Below, one piece after another: positions 1,827 to 9,971 of a stretch of DNA of 26,316 bases. Location: the IMG/VR virus record IMGVR_UViG_3300027859_000071, positions 1 through 26,316 of that record; one strand, 5' to 3'. Each line of letters opens with the position of its first letter. The first letter of the stretch is position 1. The position numbers were made by a program, and so were the translations under genes. The DNA comes from a virus. The notes below the pieces were generated by a model that ran no database searches, had not been told where the DNA came from, and worked only from the letters and a program-made list of their open reading frames with translations.

Positions 1827-4259
1827 TCAAGAAAATAGAAAGCGATTTTCTCCGATATGGCTACGTTTCAGCGTGTTTCTTGCAGGCGGCACTGGTATCC
1901 GTTTGCCAGTGCGCTCCATAATATTGTTACGCATGTTCATCAGATGATCCTCACTGTAGAACCGACAGAATTGATCCCTCAATTCATCATTCAATAAATC
2001 AACCTTGTCTATATTCACAGCGACACAATCATGCACTGTGTATAGCGGGTACTTATACGCTGTCGCCCAGTGCCATACAAATCTTTCTAAGAACGCAGCA
2101 TCTTGGCTATGGATGTAGTCAGCACAGATACGGGTGTAAGTTTTCTTGCTTGATATTTCCCCATCATCTATTCCCATCGACACCCTCAGTCTCCTGCCTG
2201 ACAGTTCTAAATAAACATCATGCTGTGATGACTCTCTTCCGTAGCTGCAGACTGTCATCCCATTGGGTGTCTTCCACCATGGAGCCATACCTTTCTCTGT
2301 TAAACAAACCTTGGCGCATCTCCTTAGCCAAGCATGTAGATCATTAATGCCAGGTAGCCAGAGCTTTGCCGCATTATCAATCGCCTTCGCCAGGACCGTA
2401 GCCAGGTCAATAATCCTGATCCCATCTTCTGTTAGGAAGTTGCCCAGCTTCTCACGACAGTGCAGTTGAATAATTTCCAGCATCGTATTGTATGACCTTC
2501 CATATACAATTGGCATACAACATTGCTTAATTAGTTTTCTGTCTGGTTTATGAATCATCCACCATTCAATACATTTTCTCTTTTTCTCACCTGCTTCATC
2601 TGATAGGTCCAGCTCCATAAACATCCGACCCAGCTCAGTAATCGCTGTTTCCATTAGCTCTGAGTACAAATCTCTATAACCTTCGCCTGTGATGTTGGTC
2701 AAGTCAGCCAGAGCAGCATCACCAATCAGGCAAGCTGCATGCCCATAGGCGCTACAGGTCTGATCCAACCTGAATGGAAGCCTTGTCCTGTACTGATAAT
2801 CCTCCTTGAATCGTGCCAGTTCACGGCATAGGCTCACCAGTCGCCATGGTTTCTTGGCCCGTTCCCACCAGCCAATGCACTCAAGCTCCCTTTGGCCGCA
2901 AGTGACCAGCCGATCCTCGTAGACACCAAAGAATTCATATCGCTTCTCCCAGTCTGGATCGACACCCCATGCTTCACCGATCGCCCAGATCAAATGCTTC
3001 TCATTGCCTGCGATCCGAGCGGCACGATTGAATGTCAGCTGTGACTGGGTGTGGTCATTGCTCTGATAGCTGATCGCAGAGCCATTGATGTAGTACCTGC
3101 CCCTATGGTCTTTCTTGCCTACAAACCACAGTTTTTTATGTGGTTTTAATTTGTCGGTGGCAATGAAGTTATGGATGACCTGTGTTCTCTGTCCATTTTT
3201 GCGTTGATCGGCCTTGTATTTCCAGAAGTGGTTCCAATAGGCCGTGGCCTGCTGCTCGCCCAGGGCCTTGGCTTTCTGCCTGTAGGCATCATCACTGGGT
3301 TTCTCCATTGGATCCCTTGGAGGAAGGGAACCCACTTCATGGCCTCGATCCCAGACAGCTCGGATCAGATCACATTGGTCATAGTCAAGATTGAACGCAA
3401 CAGACTGCTGCCAGTTGTGGGAGCCGAGCACACAAGGGTGGGCATCAATCATCTGGCCAGCCCACTTTTCATCTGGCACTGTTGAGCATGTAGTGGCCAG
3501 GCTCAGGTATCCCCCCTCGCTGAGTCCTGTCCATGCAACCGGTGGGCAAACCATCGGTATAAAACTGGGACGGAACAGCATTAGGTTCCGCTTCCAGTTT
3601 TTCATGAATTCCCAATATTGATCCGTCATTCGCACGACCAGTGCTTGACGACCGTAGCCCTGTGGTTCGGCATCAAAGCGCATCAGTCCAGTGACACGGG
3701 CTGCAATCTCAATGGCCAATGTGCCCAGACCAACCTGCTCTTTCTTTGACAGTGGTTGATAGGCAGCAGCCTTGCCAAACCCTTTATGGATCAGCCTTTT
3801 TTTGATCAGGCTCATGGATAGATTTCGGCCATTGGCCAGGCGAAGTCCTTTGAGGTGTTGACTGCCCTTCCACTCGGGATGATTTAGCCAGAGCACGAAC
3901 TCAGCACGCCTGCCAATACTTGCCGCAACGTTGTTGCGCTTCCGTCCTTCAGTGCTGTTGCTGATCATGTAAATCAGAGCTTCGCCAAAGACCTGAGCAA
4001 CAGCTTTCTCATCAGCCATCAGATCCCACATGGCCCCGTAGTTGACCGGGTTCTTCTTGGCCTTCCACCACATTTCAAGGCAAGCTTTCAGATAAGGCTT
4101 GGCGAAGGCATGAGCCATAAATCCCTCGCCTCCGACCCACCACTTGCCTGCTGTTGCTCTATCTCCACCGATGTTTTGTGACCAATATTCCAGGTCAAGC
4201 TGGTCCTGATGCTGAGGGAGCGGAAACCCCTTGAGGCCCTTTGATGGTTGCGTGGTCAT
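1827..4259 (-). CDS. T7-family single-subunit DNA-directed RNA polymerase
   Basis: Transcribes phage genes from phage-specific promoters. All catalytic landmarks of T7 RNA polymerase are visible (numbering from an upstream TTG at 4280, 817 aa): DHRGRYY near 391, motif A Asp506 (FRLDQTCSAYGH), motif B Arg581/Lys585/Tyr593/Gly594 with spacing identical to T7 R627/K631/Y639/G640, and motif C His750-Asp751 (YTVHDCVAV). The specificity-loop region (TPNGMTVCSYG to IDDGEIS, about 671-710) aligns with T7 around 739-770 but differs in sequence, so its promoter should differ. It ends in an aromatic foot (NRFLFS). It is somewhat shorter than T7 (883 aa). I prefer ATG at 4259; TTG at 4280 would add seven residues. 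Neither has a clear ribosome site. It follows integrase in the same direction. Confidence 0.97.
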   Translation of the reverse strand: MTTQPSKGLKGFPLPQHQDQLDLEYWSQNIGGDRATAGKWWVGGEGFMAHAFAKPYLKACLEMWWKAKKNPVNYGAMWDLMADEKAVAQVFGEALIYMISNSTEGRKRNNVAASIGRRAEFVLWLNHPEWKGSQHLKGLRLANGRNLSMSLIKKRLIHKGFGKAAAYQPLSKKEQVGLGTLAIEIAARVTGLMRFDAEPQGYGRQALVVRMTDQYWEFMKNWKRNLMLFRPSFIPMVCPPVAWTGLSEGGYLSLATTCSTVPDEKWAGQMIDAHPCVLGSHNWQQSVAFNLDYDQCDLIRAVWDRGHEVGSLPPRDPMEKPSDDAYRQKAKALGEQQATAYWNHFWKYKADQRKNGQRTQVIHNFIATDKLKPHKKLWFVGKKDHRGRYYINGSAISYQSNDHTQSQLTFNRAARIAGNEKHLIWAIGEAWGVDPDWEKRYEFFGVYEDRLVTCGQRELECIGWWERAKKPWRLVSLCRELARFKEDYQYRTRLPFRLDQTCSAYGHAACLIGDAALADLTNITGEGYRDLYSELMETAITELGRMFMELDLSDEAGEKKRKCIEWWMIHKPDRKLIKQCCMPIVYGRSYNTMLEIIQLHCREKLGNFLTEDGIRIIDLATVLAKAIDNAAKLWLPGINDLHAWLRRCAKVCLTEKGMAPWWKTPNGMTVCSYGRESSQHDVYLELSGRRLRVSMGIDDGEISSKKTYTRICADYIHSQDAAFLERFVWHWATAYKYPLYTVHDCVAVNIDKVDLLNDELRDQFCRFYSEDHLMNMRNNIMERTGKRIPVPPARNTLKRSHIGENRFLFS

Positions 4260-4375: not shown

Positions 4376-5539
4376 TTATGCGGGCAATTGCCCTCGCATG
4401 CCCTCAGATCGGGACGTTTGCCCTCGTTCAAGTAATAGCAAGCGCTTAGTCATCCGCTCAGACAGCATCAAATAATCCTGTGAGGTAGTCAGATTTTTAT
4501 GACCAGCCCAATACATAATTTCTGTTGCTTCTGCTCCTAGCCAAGCCAATCGTGTGCATTTGGTATGCCTGAAAGAATGACACGCATGCCATTCTGATCG
4601 ACTTAAATCATCCAGCTGGAAGTAATCACAAACTTGATGGATCTTGCCATATCGCTTGCCCTTCTGTGCTCCAGTGGATCCTTCCATTTTTAAATAATGG
4701 TAGAGGCCATTGTATGCCTGTCTATAGTCTGTATAAGTTCCAGGAAAAACACTGAAGGTGTCATAATCAGGATTACTAAGCTTTTTAAATGCAAGTAGGA
4801 TCCGTTGCACATCCTCCGACATTGGAAGTGTCCTAGGACGCAACCCTTTAGTTTTTACAAACTGCACTGTATTCATGGACCAGTTCACCCGGTCCCATCG
4901 CAGCAAAATTATTTCATTGACCCTGCAGCCGGTATGCCACATAAACTCACAAGCCAGTCGATACTTCTCAACGTCACAGATTGAGATTAAATGCTCATAC
5001 CATTCATCTTTTATTATTAGCCACTGTTTCTCTGGTTTCTTCCTGGATTCAGCAGTGGGCATCAGCGGCACCTTTGCAAGCCAGTGCAATCGTTCTGCTC
5101 TGCTGAAAATGGTGCTAAGTGAACTCAAATAAACCTCAATACTGCTGTTCTCATATCCTTCTTTCTTCATCTGGGCCTGCATCTTATCAATGTCAGTACA
5201 GGTAATCTCATGCACCAACCTGTCAAGACCAATCCGTTTGCCAGCCCTGATCAGTCGCTCTGTCTGCTGTTTGTTGCCCAGTACATCAGTGTCAAAGCAT
5301 TCGGCCATGACTGCTGCCACGGTGCGCTCTTGCTTGACAGCGCCCAAATAGGCAGCATCCAGGACGGACTTTTTGCCCCTGTTGAATTTGATTGCTGATA
5401 GCTCCTGAGCAGTCTCCTGCTTCATTGCAGCTTCCCACTGCATTGCTTCCAGCTCTGTCGGGAATGTCCGGCCCCGATATTTGCCGTCAGGTTGACGACA
5501 TCGAGCACGCCATTTTCCGCGTTCAGACCATACTGCCAT
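4376..5539 (-). CDS. int: Tyrosine recombinase, phage integrase
   Basis: Site-specific recombinase expected to insert and excise the phage genome. With ATG at 5539 it is 387 residues. The N-terminus (GKWRARCRQPDGKYRGRTF, about 8-26, then a helix) resembles an AP2-like arm-DNA-binding domain, followed by a SAM-like core-binding domain (about 70-165). Catalytic residues are Arg206 (HTGCRVNEI), a lysine at 229 or 231, His321/Arg324 (HSFRHTKCT), His347 (WAGHKN) and Tyr356 (SQDYLML). The frame also opens at TTG 5563, but that would overlap the MarR-like gene further. ATG 5539 overlaps that gene by 17 nt, suggesting coupled expression. RNA polymerase follows after about 115 nt. The attachment site is not identifiable without the host. 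Confidence 0.95.
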   Translation of the reverse strand: MAVWSERGKWRARCRQPDGKYRGRTFPTELEAMQWEAAMKQETAQELSAIKFNRGKKSVLDAAYLGAVKQERTVAAVMAECFDTDVLGNKQQTERLIRAGKRIGLDRLVHEITCTDIDKMQAQMKKEGYENSSIEVYLSSLSTIFSRAERLHWLAKVPLMPTAESRKKPEKQWLIIKDEWYEHLISICDVEKYRLACEFMWHTGCRVNEIILLRWDRVNWSMNTVQFVKTKGLRPRTLPMSEDVQRILLAFKKLSNPDYDTFSVFPGTYTDYRQAYNGLYHYLKMEGSTGAQKGKRYGKIHQVCDYFQLDDLSRSEWHACHSFRHTKCTRLAWLGAEATEIMYWAGHKNLTTSQDYLMLSERMTKRLLLLERGQTSRSEGMRGQLPA

Positions 5540-5909
5540 GATTAAGACGATGAATAGTGTCAATAAAGGTACGGCCCTTAGCAGTGAGCCAAACTCTGCG
5601 CAATCTCCTGTCGTCTGGATCTTTTTTCTCCGTCACAAAGCCCAGCATTCTGTTGCTATTAGCTTTGTTTGGAATGTCTGAGAATATATCAATATTGCGT
5701 GAAGTCGCAGACTCACTGCAGTCAAGGTATTCAGCAGCCTGTCTACTAGTTATTCCAGGGTTTAAGTCGATTAGTAATAGAAACGCAATTTGCGATACTC
5801 TTAATTGCGATGCTGTGCTGACGATGGCTCGGCATGCCGCCAGGAAGCAGTCTGAATGGGCGTTTCTTTGCTCGTTGCCATTCTGACCGCCAGTTTTTAA
5901 TTCGTTCAT
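5523..5909 (-). CDS. MarR-like winged-helix regulator upstream of integrase
   Basis: A 128-residue putative DNA-binding protein. A helix-turn-helix runs roughly 53-77 (ITSRQAAEYLDCSESATSR). It is followed by a wing of MarR type, GFVTEKKDPDDRRLRRVWL, then TAKG (about 90-112), matching the family pattern G-h-V-E-x-x-x-D-P-x-D-R-R…L-T-x-K-G. It overlaps the integrase start, so it probably belongs to the same transcript and may control integration, lysogeny or phage transcription; that role is inference. It is clearly related to the protein encoded at 6886-7263. Upstream lie about 200 non-coding bases with a strong inverted repeat (6009-6036). ATG at 5909 is directly preceded by CACTAC and lacks a ribosome site. 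Confidence 0.85.
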   Translation of the reverse strand: MNELKTGGQNGNEQRNAHSDCFLAACRAIVSTASQLRVSQIAFLLLIDLNPGITSRQAAEYLDCSESATSRNIDIFSDIPNKANSNRMLGFVTEKKDPDDRRLRRVWLTAKGRTFIDTIHRLNHGSMV

Positions 5910-6114: not shown

Positions 6115-6306
6115 CTACCTATGGCGATGGTCCAGAAATGCCGCACCTACTACAGCGCGTATAATTTGTAACACCGGATGATCTCGTGGACGCAATGTTC
6201 GGCGTTCTACTGATCTCCTCCTCATATATTTGCTCAGCATGACCAGTGAGGGCTTCGCTGTGAATAGGTATTTTTGATGAATGATCCCATAAGTACGGAT
6301 TTTCAT
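6115..6306 (-). CDS. Hypothetical small basic protein, 63 aa
   Basis: Not recognised. It is Arg/His-rich and basic (KYMRRRSVERRTLRPRDHP), with a mildly hydrophobic stretch VLQIIRAVVGAAFL near residues 45-58. The main support is that its ATG overlaps the stop of the preceding 115-aa gene (ATGA at 6303-6306), continuing a run of overlapping starts and stops, and that AAGGG lies about 10 nt upstream. Another ORF (6119-6436) covers the same DNA in a different frame but is not coupled to anything. This could still be a chance ORF. Confidence 0.35.
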   Translation of the reverse strand: MKIRTYGIIHQKYLFTAKPSLVMLSKYMRRRSVERRTLRPRDHPVLQIIRAVVGAAFLDHRHR

Positions 6307-6650
6307 AGCTTTTTACCCTTCTGTGCAGGGAATCGCTCACACTGCTCCTGTTGCAGTGACTTTGCAGCAGTTCTTGCCTCTCGCAAGGTTGCATGCCCTT
6401 GAAACTTGCCGACAGTGGAGATTCGCCCCACGTCATCGACCCACCGGACAGTAAACCGCCATGGTCCTGGTGGGATCCAGCCCAGTGTGGTCCTCCGGCC
6501 TTTCAGCCGTTCCTTAGACAGAAAAAAAGCCCCATCCCAGCAGGGATAACAGGGCTTTGCAGGATGCTCTGAGTCAAGGCCCTTCAGGCAAGCTGGATTG
6601 AACCAGTTGCCCTCATGGCGCAGCTTGATCGAGCCTATGGATGAATACAT
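6303..6650 (-). CDS. Hypothetical protein, 115 aa, possible AP2-like fold
   Basis: Unrecognised protein. The N-terminal third has a CxxC pair (AKPCYPCWDG, about 31-40). The C-terminal part (WRFTVRWVDDVGRISTVGKF followed by a helix rich in Ala/Arg/Lys) has the pattern of three beta strands plus helix seen in AP2-like DNA-binding and integrase arm-binding domains, and resembles the N-terminus of the integrase in this window. That assignment is inference. The start overlaps the stop of the lipoprotein gene (TGATG at 6648-6652) and the stop overlaps the next ATG. A strong terminator-like hairpin lies inside the reading frame at 6522-6558. Confidence 0.6.
   Translation of the reverse strand: MYSSIGSIKLRHEGNWFNPACLKGLDSEHPAKPCYPCWDGAFFLSKERLKGRRTTLGWIPPGPWRFTVRWVDDVGRISTVGKFQGHATLREARTAAKSLQQEQCERFPAQKGKKL
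6522..6558 (-). terminator. Rho-independent terminator-like hairpin inside a coding sequence
   Basis: Read leftward, AAAGCCC (6558-6552) pairs with GGGCTTT (6532-6526) and an inner ATCCC/GGGAT pair (6547-6543 with 6538-6534) stacks inside. A run of seven T residues ends the element (6528-6522). This is canonical terminator shape, yet it lies within the 115-aa gene (about codons 31-43). It may act as an attenuator between the MarR-like/lipoprotein genes and the downstream MarR-integrase-RNA polymerase genes. Confidence 0.7.
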
Positions 6651-6889
6651 CAGTACAGGCCACCCCCATACTCGACTTTGTAACCAGAGGCCTCTAGGTC
6701 AGCCTTTATTTCCGCTTCTCTGGCGCTGCGTCGCATTGCTCTCTGATACCGTTCTGGACTCATGCCTTCATAGTGAAATTTAGATCTTGATGCTGGATAT
6801 TCATTATTGGTGCAACCCACGAGAAGGGCTGCGCAGACTCCAACATGGATAAAGACGGCTCTGCTGATGCTGAAAAAGATGGTTTTCAT
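6650..6889 (-). CDS. Small predicted lipoprotein, 79 aa
   Basis: It begins with a signal-type sequence: MKTIFF, then a hydrophobic core (AVFIHVGVCAALLVGC) ending in a lipobox LVGC with the lipidated Cys at residue 26. The mature part of about 53 residues is charged (SPERYQRAMRRSAREAEIKADLEASG). It would be anchored to a membrane facing the periplasm. Phage lipoproteins of this size act as outer-membrane spanins or as lysogenic-conversion or superinfection-exclusion factors. This one is not proline-rich like classic o-spanins and sits away from the lysis genes, so exclusion or conversion is the better guess, without direct evidence. Its ATG overlaps the stop of the MarR-like gene (ATGA at 6886-6889). 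Confidence 0.65.
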   Translation of the reverse strand: MKTIFFSISRAVFIHVGVCAALLVGCTNNEYPASRSKFHYEGMSPERYQRAMRRSAREAEIKADLEASGYKVEYGGGLY

Positions 6890-7263
6890 GATTCAGATAA
6901 TCCTGTAGTAAACCCCAGAAAAGATTCAATGAATGACTCACCTTTTTTGGTGAGATAAACATGCTTTGTGCGGTCATCGCACTGACCAGGCCTGACTTCG
7001 ACAAAACCGGCGAATTTATGACGCTCCGATTTTCCGCGAACGTTACCGGTCCCGAATACGTCAATGTTTCTGGAGACTCCTCCAGGTGAGCAGTTCAAAA
7101 AGTCCCGCTCCTGAAGCTCCTTCTGGCTTATGCCAGGGAATTCAGAAACCAACAAAAGAAGAACGAGCTGGTTCACACGCATCTGCGGAAAACCAGTGTT
7201 AGCCATTGCGAACTGAAGTGCTCTCCGATTCGCGTGACCAATTTCTACAGGTTCAATGCTCAT
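6886..7263 (-). CDS. Second MarR-like winged-helix regulator, 125 aa
   Basis: Paralogue of the protein encoded at 5523-5909. Both share a helix (MRVNQLVLLLL here, LRVSQIAFLLL there), a PGI(S/T) turn, a helix-turn-helix ending in SRNIDVF versus SRNIDIF, and a wing with GFVEVRPGQCDDRTKHVYL followed by TKKG. It is probably a dimeric DNA-binding regulator. It sits in the overlapping cluster 7735-6115 under the promoter-leader at 7744-7819, so it should be made early or constitutively from a host-type promoter. It starts at ATG 7263 within CTGAATCATGA, preceded by GAGG at good spacing. The targets are unknown; the inverted repeat at 6009-6036 is one candidate. Confidence 0.8.
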   Translation of the reverse strand: MSIEPVEIGHANRRALQFAMANTGFPQMRVNQLVLLLLVSEFPGISQKELQERDFLNCSPGGVSRNIDVFGTGNVRGKSERHKFAGFVEVRPGQCDDRTKHVYLTKKGESFIESFLGFTTGLSES

Positions 7264-7463
7264 GATTCAGCCTCTGAAACAGCGTCTGCATAGGCTGAAT
7301 CCAGCACTTCAATGATGAATTCAGTAGTGGGCCAGCTTGGACGCGGAAGCATCGGTGTTGATTGATGCATGAGCATAAAAAGGATGCTCCATTGATCCCG
7401 CGTCAGTGTCGCCGTAATGGTGATCAGCTCACCACCATTTAGCTTTGCGTTTGTTGGTGTCAT
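7260..7463 (-). CDS. Hypothetical protein, 67 aa
   Basis: Unrecognised small acidic protein (TRDQWSILFMLMHQSTPMLPRPSWPTTEFIIEVLDSAY). No signal peptide or obvious transmembrane segment. Support for coding comes from its place in the chain of overlapping genes: its ATG lies in CTGAATCATGA overlapping the previous stop, with GAGGG upstream, and its stop overlaps the MarR-like start in the same way. It could be a small partner of the regulator; that is speculation. Confidence 0.65.
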   Translation of the reverse strand: MTPTNAKLNGGELITITATLTRDQWSILFMLMHQSTPMLPRPSWPTTEFIIEVLDSAYADAVSEAES

Positions 7464-7735
7464 GATTCAGCCCTCAGTGCAGCGGTCTGCTCCTGAACGT
7501 GCTCATCGTCATGAGTCAGAGCGTAATAAACATCATTTTGCAGAATGTCCATGCACTCCAGTGCTGAAACTCCTGGATAGGACATCTCCTGATTGCTTTT
7601 AAGAAACGTTTTTAAAGCTTCCAGCAATTGTTCATCAGTTGCACTGGTAGATGTCCCGATCTGTTGCAGCCATAGGCAACTGCTTAACAGGCCATAAAGC
7701 CGATTGGCTCCAGGCCTTGTGAAATTGACTTTCAT
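7460..7735 (-). CDS. Hypothetical protein, 91 aa, first gene of the leftward regulator cluster
   Basis: Unrecognised, probably all-helical small protein (GANRLYGLLSSCLWLQQIG, then TDEQLLEALKTFLKSNQEMSY, then a segment ending ALTHDDEHVQEQTAALRAES). I chose ATG at 7735. The frame also opens at GTG 7759, but that codon falls inside the leader hairpin (7756-7771), making it a poor start. It is the first gene downstream of the promoter-leader at 7744-7819. Its stop overlaps the next ATG in the CTGAATCATGA junction preceded by GAGGG. Function unknown. Confidence 0.65.
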   Translation of the reverse strand: MKVNFTRPGANRLYGLLSSCLWLQQIGTSTSATDEQLLEALKTFLKSNQEMSYPGVSALECMDILQNDVYYALTHDDEHVQEQTAALRAES

Positions 7736-7743
7736 GGTGCTTT

Positions 7744-7819
7744 GTTGTAGTGAAAGCACTGTTTCCAGCGCATATTCAGATCATATATGGAACGTCCCGT
7801 TTCTGCAAGCTTCCAGTGC
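7744..7819 (-). promoter_or_regulatory. Promoter-leader element, copy 1: sigma70-like promoter plus GAAA-loop hairpin
   Basis: Read leftward: GCACTGGAAG (7819-7810), -35-like TTGCAG (7808-7803), a 17-bp spacer, -10-like TATGAT (7785-7780), then hairpin GCGCTGGAAACAGTGC (7771-7756; 6 bp including one G-T, GAAA loop) and CACTACAAC (7752-7744), ending about 9 nt before the ATG at 7735. The predicted transcript would begin almost at the hairpin. A near copy lies at 9488-9566. It probably drives the cluster 7735-6115 and perhaps integrase and RNA polymerase. Confidence 0.75.
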
Positions 7820-7862
7820 GATCAAGGAACAAACGAGCGCAGCGAGGATGTGACAGCGCAAT

Positions 7863-7887
7863 AAAAAACCGGGCTCTATGGCCCGGT
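7863..7887 (-). terminator. Rho-independent terminator after the ArdC-like gene
   Basis: Read leftward, ACCGGGC (7887-7881) and GCCCGGT (7874-7868) form a perfect 7-bp GC-rich stem with a 6-nt loop, followed by a T-run (7868-7863). It lies 24 bp past the ArdC-like stop and insulates it from the promoter-leader just downstream. The stretch 7820-7862 shows nothing else. Confidence 0.9.
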
Positions 7888-7911
7888 CCCCCATCACTCG
7901 ACTTCTCCAGC

Positions 7912-8889
7912 CTATGCCTTAACAGTCTCCCGTGCAGGCTCTTCCATGTCTTCCATGGTGACCTCTCCAGTGATCAGATCAGCTGCTCTCCTGGCCTCTG
8001 AGATGGCCTTCAGAAGGCTCTTTGATCCATCCTCCCTAAGCTTGCTGGCCCAGTGCTTCAGATAGCTCGCATGGTTCTGAATATCGCAACCAATATTCAG
8101 CCTGCAACCAATCAGGATGGATGCAAGCTCCGCCACTAGCTCCTCCCTGGCATAACTAGATGATCCGAACTTGCCCTCCATCGGACGGTTCAGCCGTGAC
8201 TTATGACCAGTGCTGTGAGCCTGCTCATGAGCCCAGGTGGCATAGAAAGCAAGGCTTGATTCAAAGCTCCCTATAGGCGGCATGGAAATACAATCACCTA
8301 GTGGTGAATAGCAAGCTACTGATCCGCCATAAGTCGTTTTAACAGGCCAAGCTCCTAGAACATTCTGTGCATTATCAATAATTTCATTTTCTTTCAGTGG
8401 TGTCGTTTCACCTAATGCAGCCTTTACCAGTGAATCCAGCTTATTCTGAGCCTTATCATCCTTACCCTGAATATCAGCGACATTAAAAACACATGCAACC
8501 TTATAACTGGTCCATATGTTCATTTCAGCTTCTCCAGCATCATTAATAACAGGTTTACCCTGTTCATCCTGTTTTTCATATTGATTAAGTTGCGGTCTAA
8601 GCACTCTTGCCGCTTTGCATCCTTTAACAGGATGACAACCAATTTGTTTTGCCTGGGCTGATCCAATCCATAAGGGCATGCTCTGACCTCTCATGGATGA
8701 ATAGATCTCCAGGAGCATTGGATTCGCTCCTGAATACTCTCGACCAGTGATCAGGTTCCTGTGCATCCCTCCAGTCCTTGATGCATCCCATGGCTTACGC
8801 CATGGCGCTAGTTCAGTCCCTGATTCAAACAGTGCAACCAGGTCATTAAACAGGACTTCTTCAGGCTTGATGAATGTTTTCTTAGTCAT
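7912..8889 (-). CDS. ArdC-like antirestriction protein with zincin-type peptidase domain
   Basis: Family known on plasmids and phages for protecting incoming DNA against host restriction. The N-terminal ArdC region binds ssDNA and the C-terminal part is a metallopeptidase-like (gluzincin) domain. In this 325-residue protein the N-terminal signature (FESGTELAPWRKPW, NLITGREYSGANPMLL) spans about 21-60. The metal-binding HEQAH is at 221-225 followed by YAREELVAELAS (246-257) with the glutamates expected for the third ligand. It has its own downstream terminator and is preceded by another terminator only about 25 bp upstream of ATG 8889, so its expression control is unusual. A role in defending the phage genome at entry is inference from family. 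Confidence 0.88.
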   Translation of the reverse strand: MTKKTFIKPEEVLFNDLVALFESGTELAPWRKPWDASRTGGMHRNLITGREYSGANPMLLEIYSSMRGQSMPLWIGSAQAKQIGCHPVKGCKAARVLRPQLNQYEKQDEQGKPVINDAGEAEMNIWTSYKVACVFNVADIQGKDDKAQNKLDSLVKAALGETTPLKENEIIDNAQNVLGAWPVKTTYGGSVACYSPLGDCISMPPIGSFESSLAFYATWAHEQAHSTGHKSRLNRPMEGKFGSSSYAREELVAELASILIGCRLNIGCDIQNHASYLKHWASKLREDGSKSLLKAISEARRAADLITGEVTMEDMEEPARETVKA

Positions 8890-8913
8890 GGTTCCAGGTA
8901 GTGATGGAATGGA

Positions 8914-8947
8914 TAAAAAAAAGAACAGGAGATAAATTATCCCCTGT
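8914..8947 (-). terminator. Rho-independent terminator upstream of the ArdC-like gene
   Basis: Read leftward, ACAGGGGATAA pairs with TTATCTCCTGT over 8947-8925 (one G-U, very small loop if fully paired), followed by TTC and eight T residues (to about 8914). It ends transcripts of the 9476-8966 genes, 19 nt after the stop. It leaves no space for an ordinary promoter before the ArdC start at 8889. Confidence 0.85.
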
Positions 8948-8965
8948 AATCAATAATTGATTGAA

Positions 8966-9235
8966 CTATTCTTTAACAGGAGTCCAGACCTTTACCTGAG
9001 TACAGTTGCAGGCTAAAACTCCATAATCAGTAGCATGGTGATACTTCATGAAATTACTCTCAGTTCCAGGAATAACGTCAATGACTGAGTTTTCTGGTAT
9101 CTCTTTATAAGTAAATACTTTGTATGCTTCATAATCTTGCTGATTATTGTCATAATCAAAACCTGTCTCATCTCCATTGATCATTGCACAGATCCAGTGA
9201 TCAGGAACATACATTTTGTGAGTTCTGAATTTCAT
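8966..9235 (-). CDS. Hypothetical protein, 89 aa
   Basis: Unrecognised acidic small protein starting MKFRTHKMYVPDHWICAMIN, with a Gly-Asp-Glu-Thr-Gly turn and a C-terminal beta-rich part ending TQVKVWTPVKE. I chose ATG at 9235. The frame remains open to TTG 9310, but that would overlap the upstream 66-aa gene. Short proteins with a VPDxWICAxxNGDxxG-like pattern are, from memory, frequent near ArdC-like genes in aquatic bacteria and phages; this was not checked. It is cotranscribed with the 66-aa gene and ends at the 8914-8947 terminator. Confidence 0.6.
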   Translation of the reverse strand: MKFRTHKMYVPDHWICAMINGDETGFDYDNNQQDYEAYKVFTYKEIPENSVIDVIPGTESNFMKYHHATDYGVLACNCTQVKVWTPVKE

Positions 9236-9275
9236 GATGGATTGATTGAATGAATAGTAATGATTAATAAAATGA

Positions 9276-9476
9276 TCAGAGATATGCACTGAATGCATCG
9301 TGAACATCAATTGAATAATCAGGATGATTGATCAGTGCATTGATTGCATTTGTCCTGGTCTGAATAGCTTTGTAATGACGCTGCAGGTCATACAGACTGT
9401 TAGGTAGCGATGCTTCTGCATCCATTGCATCCTTCGTCTGGATAACAGTCCTGGTCAACTGCTTGATGCTTTCCAT
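9276..9476 (-). CDS. Hypothetical protein, 66 aa, first gene of the leftward arm
   Basis: Unrecognised helical protein (MESIKQLTRTVIQTKDAMDA, then LYDLQRHYKAIQTRTNAINALI). The start at ATG 9476 is supported by GGAG six bases upstream, one of the few clear ribosome sites here. It lies directly downstream of promoter-leader copy 2 (9488-9566). As the first gene read from a host-type promoter, next to an antirestriction gene, it is a candidate early host-interaction protein; that is inference only. Confidence 0.6.
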   Translation of the reverse strand: MESIKQLTRTVIQTKDAMDAEASLPNSLYDLQRHYKAIQTRTNAINALINHPDYSIDVHDAFSAYL

Positions 9477-9487
9477 TGATTGCTCCG

Positions 9488-9566
9488 GTTGTAGTGCTGC
9501 TCACTGTTTCCAGTGAACTATCAGACCATAGCACTGGTCCTTGCCATTCTGCAACCTTTCCACTGC
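9488..9566 (-). promoter_or_regulatory. Promoter-leader element, copy 2: sigma70-like promoter plus GAAA-loop hairpin
   Basis: Read leftward: GCAGTGGAAAGG (9566-9555), -35-like TTGCAG (9554-9549), an 18-bp spacer, -10-like TATGGT (9530-9525), hairpin TCACTGGAAACAGTGA (9516-9501; perfect 6 bp, GAAA loop) and CACTACAAC (9496-9488). It mirrors copy 1 block by block with different spacer bases. It should drive the genes at 9476 and 9235, ending at the 8914-8947 terminator. Confidence 0.75.
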
Positions 9567-9971
9567 AGCAAGCTCCTATTCTTATCAATCTTATATTGAT
9601 TATATTATTCTTTATGGTTCATTATATTTTCATGCTGTTTCATTCTTATTCTTTTTATGGGTCGTGTGTGTATCCAAACTAATAAGAATTAAACAGTACA
9701 GAATAATAATAATACAAATCTATCTGGTTGTCAATTCATTTCATTAAGGACGCTGTGAGGATCAGATGGTGTGATCTTAGCGCCCTCAGAATATTTAAAA
9801 GGAAACATCGACGGGGGAAAAATCAAAAATATATATATACGCGTACCCATACACCGATTAGTAACAAAAATCCGATGTATCACTAATTCATCAAGTATTA
9901 ATCTAGATCCATCATATGAATCATAGATATTTCTATTAAGTGTTAGATCAGGATTAATCAGTAATGAATAC

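Follow-up and report, generated by a model that had tools for sequence, protein, structure and literature searches.

The 26,316-base stretch of DNA analysed here (the window) is an IMG/VR virus record from an integrase-bearing Autographiviridae phage near Krakvirus. Its leftward genes include those for a single-subunit RNA polymerase (phrog_414, E 1.5e-95), a Gp2.5-like ssDNA-binding protein, an endonuclease, an integrase, two MarR-like regulators, and an ArdC-type antirestriction protein. Among named phages, Krakvirus S39C11 (AP013549, Autographiviridae) is the closest, with a terminase (TerL) and an RNA polymerase that are 82% and 52% identical to those of the window, respectively; the window is thus a temperate T7-like phage with an integration module. 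One MarR-like gene (5523-5909, minus strand; phrog_9665, E 4.9e-15) lies directly upstream of the integrase gene, adjoining it upstream of the phage RNA polymerase gene as in the MarR module of temperate T7-like phages. The other (6886-7263, minus strand; phrog_9665, E 3.9e-8) encodes a candidate operator-binding protein and belongs to a leftward early gene group, which starts with a 92-residue ORF (7460-7738) and continues with ORFs 7260-7463, the MarR-like gene itself, 6650-6889, and 6303-6650. The window thus has two MarR-like genes, and the tblastn matches in relatives correspond to one locus each, adjoining the integrase. At three successive junctions of this group (window 6886-7463, minus strand; starts at 7463, 7263, and 6889), the sequence CTGAATCATGA is common and the stop TGA of one ORF overlaps the ATG of the next ORF. 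A second leftward early group starts with a 66-residue ORF (9276-9476, minus strand), followed by ORF 8966-9235. Two terminator-like elements are located on the minus strand between these groups: a hairpin with a T tract between ORF 8966-9235 and ardC (8917-8947), and CCGGGC-CATAGA-GCCCGG-TTTTTT after ardC and before block A (7863-7886).

We found that two non-coding blocks of ~85 bp, block A (7744-7826, minus strand) and block B (9488-9572, minus strand), stand directly upstream of the short early ORFs 7460-7738 and 9276-9476, respectively. Local alignment of the two blocks gives 65 identical columns of 89 including gaps (73%) and a score of 41; 3,000 dinucleotide-shuffled pairs gave a mean score of 14.6 and a maximum of 28. 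By this comparison the blocks are homologous, a duplication far beyond chance, and both are read as copies of one early-gene start cassette ahead of two early gene groups. Reading along the minus strand, block A consists of TTGCAG (7808-7803), 17 bp, TATGAT (7785-7780), 8 nt, a hairpin (7771-7756), the leader word CACTACAAC (7752-7744), and the ATG at 7738. Block B has the same order, with TTGCAG (9554-9549), 18 bp, TATGGT (9530-9525), 8 nt, a hairpin (9516-9501), CACTACAAC (9496-9488), and the ATG at 9476. Exact matches of CTGGAAACAG in the window occur in blocks A and B only. The shared words that the initial annotation described in the same order in two leftward non-coding blocks are all present on the minus strand. 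Its statement that the spacers differ holds for their sequences, but the likeness extends across the whole block, and the spacers are therefore related sequences that have diverged.

The promoter-like boxes of block A (TTGCAG-17-TATGAT, 7780-7808, minus strand) agree with the sigma70 consensus at 8/12 positions, and those of block B (TTGCAG-18-TATGGT, 9525-9554, minus strand) at 7/12, with a TGN before the -10 box. Both -35 boxes agree with TTGACA at three of six positions. The -35/-10-like pairs with 17 and 18 bp spacing noted earlier are thus present but weak, and in a sigma70 scan of the window both fell below the threshold and were absent from its list. The TATGNTCTG of the block A boxes is common to the TTGACA-17-TATGTT promoters of two relatives, L012 and L015. 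The scan located a near-consensus promoter reading towards block B (TTGACA-17-TATTAT, 9706-9734, minus strand; 11/12), whose -10 box is 176 bp upstream of the block B -10 box. No hairpin stands behind this promoter.

The hairpins are GCGCTG-GAAA-CAGTGC in block A (7756-7771, minus strand) and TCACTG-GAAA-CAGTGA in block B (9501-9516, minus strand). Computed in 37 nt and compared with shuffles, their RNA fold energies are -9.6 kcal/mol (z -3.3) and -12.4 kcal/mol (z -3.5), respectively, so the 6-bp GAAA-loop hairpin reported for both blocks is borne out by folding better than shuffles; the block B stem extends to 8 bp if G-U pairs are included. In each block, 8 nt separate the -10-like box from this GNRA-type hairpin, and a short unstructured leader that includes CACTACAAC follows; the distance from the hairpin to the start codon is 20 nt in A and 24 nt in B. 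The hairpin is the best conserved part of the blocks (CTGGAAACAGTG), and the spacers and the stretch from the -10 box to the hairpin have diverged. Covariation had also been proposed: the outer pair is G-C in one block and T-A in the other, a double change, and the inner G-T/A-T pair has changed on a single side. These changes exist but are too thin to prove an RNA structure, because unrelated bases pair by chance in 6/16 cases and one double change between two copies is weak evidence. No Rfam family matched the window at gathering score.

Relatives of the phage were found through its polymerase. No relative appeared among viral loci with the window RNA polymerase as the sole query, or in an RNA polymerase search of bacterial and archaeal genome contigs, but a three-sequence RNA polymerase alignment used as the query yielded 30 viral loci, in most of which integrase and MarR genes adjoin the polymerase gene. 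The exact block motif was found nowhere else in the viral contigs scanned and not in the fetched relatives; a relaxed motif scan of viral contigs matched nine contigs, and a scan with the pattern TTGCAGAA..TATGNTCTGA was unspecific among the matches listed. Searches among phages gave no match for the block region as DNA or for ORF 7460-7738 as protein. One weak viral protein match to the region sits in an unrelated phage and was set aside.

A within-genome scan for similar leaders showed that many relatives have repeated leader cassettes of their own, located in the corresponding early region. We selected promoters solely by their consensus match (9/12 or better) in early regions of the window and of the fetched relatives. 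In 6 of the 10 picks, a hairpin with a stem of 5 bp or more, including three or more G-C pairs, lies at most 11 nt behind the promoter, compared with 14% of random early-region positions; blocks A and B are outside these ten. Homologous pairs are among the six (L012/L015 and two L040 cases), leaving about four independent cases. The six cases are one each in L006, L012, and L015 and three in L040, and their hairpin sequences are unrelated between lineages. Two of the L040 cassettes differ by compensatory changes (GGGGAGC/GCTCCCC versus GGGAGGC/GCCTCCC). In both of these cassette copies (5545-5573 and 6148-6176), the TGA that ends the preceding gene overlaps the -35 box TTGACA. G-U pairs are present in the stems of block A, L006, and L015; such pairs suit an RNA better than a DNA palindrome. 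All three ardC-holding phages examined (the window, L009, and L040) have a leader hairpin after ardC and before the start codon of the next early gene. An early non-coding tandem array of AGAACCTATGT / AGAGCCACAT units occupies 6040-6290 of L009.

Hairpins also occur in the relatives without promoters. We identified 34 distinct copies of one long leader hairpin (17 pairs) in 14 relatives. Each stands ahead of an early gene, either behind the stop codon of the early gene that precedes it or close to that gene's end; examples are L016 4822-4868, L022 5977-6021, and L034 7402-7448. Many are capped by UNCG loops (UACG, UUCG, or UGCG). The L009 copy (3380-3426, minus strand), right after ardC, was added by a covariance model, giving 35 copies in 15 relatives; both of its stems have changed (CCTCCTA/TAGGAGG and GAGCATC/GATGCTC) and its UACG loop is kept. 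Over the 35 copies, both-sided changes occur at 9/17 pairs in a structure-fitted alignment (6/17 in a plain alignment); none of 500 shuffles reached the former value, and slid structures fall well short of it. An Rfam search of six of these relatives gave no matches. The UNCG-capped hairpins seem to be a phage RNA family that has not been catalogued. In L022 (6014-6030) and further copies, a GGCTCC located a few bases downstream offers an alternative partner for GGAGCC, the 3' arm of the outer stem, and such an element could switch between two folds. The covariance model of this leader hairpin family (R1) has no match in the window at E up to 1; because of this, the window is linked to its relatives by analogy of layout, not by homology.

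The part of the layout nearest to the gene is a short word before the start codon. In the window, CACTAC occurs just before four early starts, those of ORFs 9276 and 7460, ardC, and the MarR-like gene 5523, and the leader of the last (MarR 5523-5909) also holds a GCAGAT..GTCTGC hairpin. Its role as a start-codon word is suggestive only, because two of the four starts belong to the homologous blocks. In 11 relatives, ACCTTG(C/T)A has 51 sense copies, of which 47 are positioned at most 25 nt ahead of the ATG of an ORF of 45 aa or more, almost always in the early region. Sites include L034 5672, 6339, 7465, and 8422, L016 4220-6045, and the minus strand of L009; in several relatives the word abuts the MarR ATG directly. 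In L040, CACTTTA occupies the same leader place. The distance from hairpin to ATG is 20-37 nt where measured, with the exception of the MarR leader at 5909 (7 nt). A far-reaching and doubtful extension of these observations is that early genes in this clade of integrase-bearing Autographiviridae bear a leader 'code' particular to each lineage, in which a hairpin is combined with a fixed word (ACCTTGYA, CACTTTA, or CACTAC) before the start codon. A phage or host factor would recognise this code in the RNA and thereby set early expression or the choice between lysis and lysogeny; in the present lineage, the code would take the form of blocks A and B.

The arrangement of hairpin, leader word, and ATG is found both behind promoters and without a promoter after stop codons, and the hairpin is therefore linked to the leader, not the promoter, which favours a role in RNA. 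The reading that we favour, at about an even chance of being correct, is a 5'-end hairpin that protects the early mRNA and keeps the start region open, so that both early groups are expressed alike soon after infection. Host RNA polymerase would start approximately at the base of the hairpin, and the early mRNAs would begin with it. The folded hairpin may then shield the 5' end, or a processed end, from decay and leave the ribosome-loading stretch single-stranded, and the two early gene groups would thereby be expressed alike soon after infection. Hairpins at the 5' terminus are known to stabilise bacterial mRNA (PMC3997798), and an effect on RNA stability is plausible at blocks A and B. For the conserved transcription start with a structured leader that the initial annotation assigned to two leftward operons, the duplicated cassette and the analogous cassettes of unrelated sequence at the same places in related phages speak in favour; the predicted start sites are the doubtful part, with weak boxes and, for block B, a near-consensus promoter 176 bp upstream. 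Against the RNA reading, block B would be internal in any transcript from promoter 9734-9706, only one pair within the window has changed on both sides, and half-sites flanking the promoter would fit an operator.

Such an operator is the main rival, next after the RNA reading. The dyad would be a DNA site at which a phage MarR-type regulator binds CACTGGAAACAGTG at the transcription start, and perhaps a CACTGGAA-like half-site at approximately -45, repressing both early groups in lysogeny, and the MarR of the block A group would regulate itself. The window encodes two MarR-like proteins, and an earlier report (PMC10134795, citing Boeckman 2022) proposes that MarR proteins control temperate T7-like phages from sites on either side of the promoter that precedes the RNA polymerase gene. 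Copies resembling CACTGGAA flank the boxes, 48 and 50 bp apart, and in block A the half-sites are GCACTGGAAGC and GCGCTGGAAAC, a start-site dyad plus a similar half-site near -45; the flanking 11-mers (approximately -45 and +1) agree at 9/11 positions, which is marginal, with 52 and 86 of 1,000 shuffles as good. On this strand of the window, four CAGTG/CACTG words within 85 bp occur in block B only. In L012, CAGTGTTCGAYG, a candidate MarR operator, stands just after the early promoter (3928) and again upstream of the RNA polymerase gene (6505). However, the block A dyad has a G-T mismatch as DNA, the full dyad (CTGGAAACAG) is absent before the integrase and RNA polymerase genes in the window, the matching hairpins of relatives are unrelated in sequence even within L040, and the same layout exists without promoters. 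We consider an operator possible but on balance improbable, and the hairpin and operator roles could coexist.

It is also rather unlikely that the blocks are a mere duplication of an early promoter region, with the hairpin as a functionless by-product of conserved promoter and start sequence. Only two copies with one double change are available, and at 73% likeness an unbroken stem is not very surprising; against this, the hairpin is the best conserved element while the spacers diverged, and in relatives this position is still occupied by a hairpin, though of different sequence. Promoters of the phage's own T7-like RNA polymerase are a much poorer explanation: the phage encodes such a single-subunit enzyme and CACTA occurs in T7-type promoters, but there are only two copies, both early and upstream of the polymerase gene, with none before late genes in the window, and the motif is absent from relatives. 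Terminators or attenuators are hardly credible, as the hairpins sit between gene groups but neither is followed by a T tract (TTTCACTAC, GCAGCACTAC), and separate T-tract hairpins are nearby (7886-7863 and 8947-8917). These last two readings were rejected, as was membership in an Rfam family, on the absence of matches.

Early-gene control in temperate T7-like phages is little understood, and a cassette that recurs in structure and position across relatives while its sequence changes offers a testable handle on early expression and the lysis-lysogeny choice. In phage T7, the gene 10 leader hairpin and the RNase III sites of the early region are likewise hairpins in leader or intercistronic RNA ahead of start codons. 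Those of T7 are either cleaved by RNase III or located behind phage promoters, whereas the block cassette has host-type boxes and a stem of just 6-8 bp. The 5' stem-loops of ompA, papA, and engineered bla (PMC3997798) resemble the blocks in having a stable hairpin at the 5' end, which is predicted here, followed by a single-stranded ribosome-loading stretch; the blocks differ in being in a phage and in two copies together with the promoter. In the case of the halovirus HF2 (PMC8707807), a short promoter-carrying intergenic repeat precedes several virus genes, but this virus is archaeal and its repeat is unrelated in sequence, and the abstract of that paper describes promoter motifs rather than leader hairpins. 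LUZ100 (PMC10134795) shares with the window a MarR-like gene directly upstream of the integrase gene, followed by the single-subunit RNA polymerase gene, and early host-type promoters; hairpins are not mentioned in the paper's main text, and the window has two MarR-like genes. Krakvirus S39C11 (AP013549) lacks the block A/B sequence but has a promoter, TTGACA-17-TATGTTCTGAG, with a hairpin behind it as in the blocks, ahead of an operon leading to the MarR, integrase, and RNA polymerase genes.
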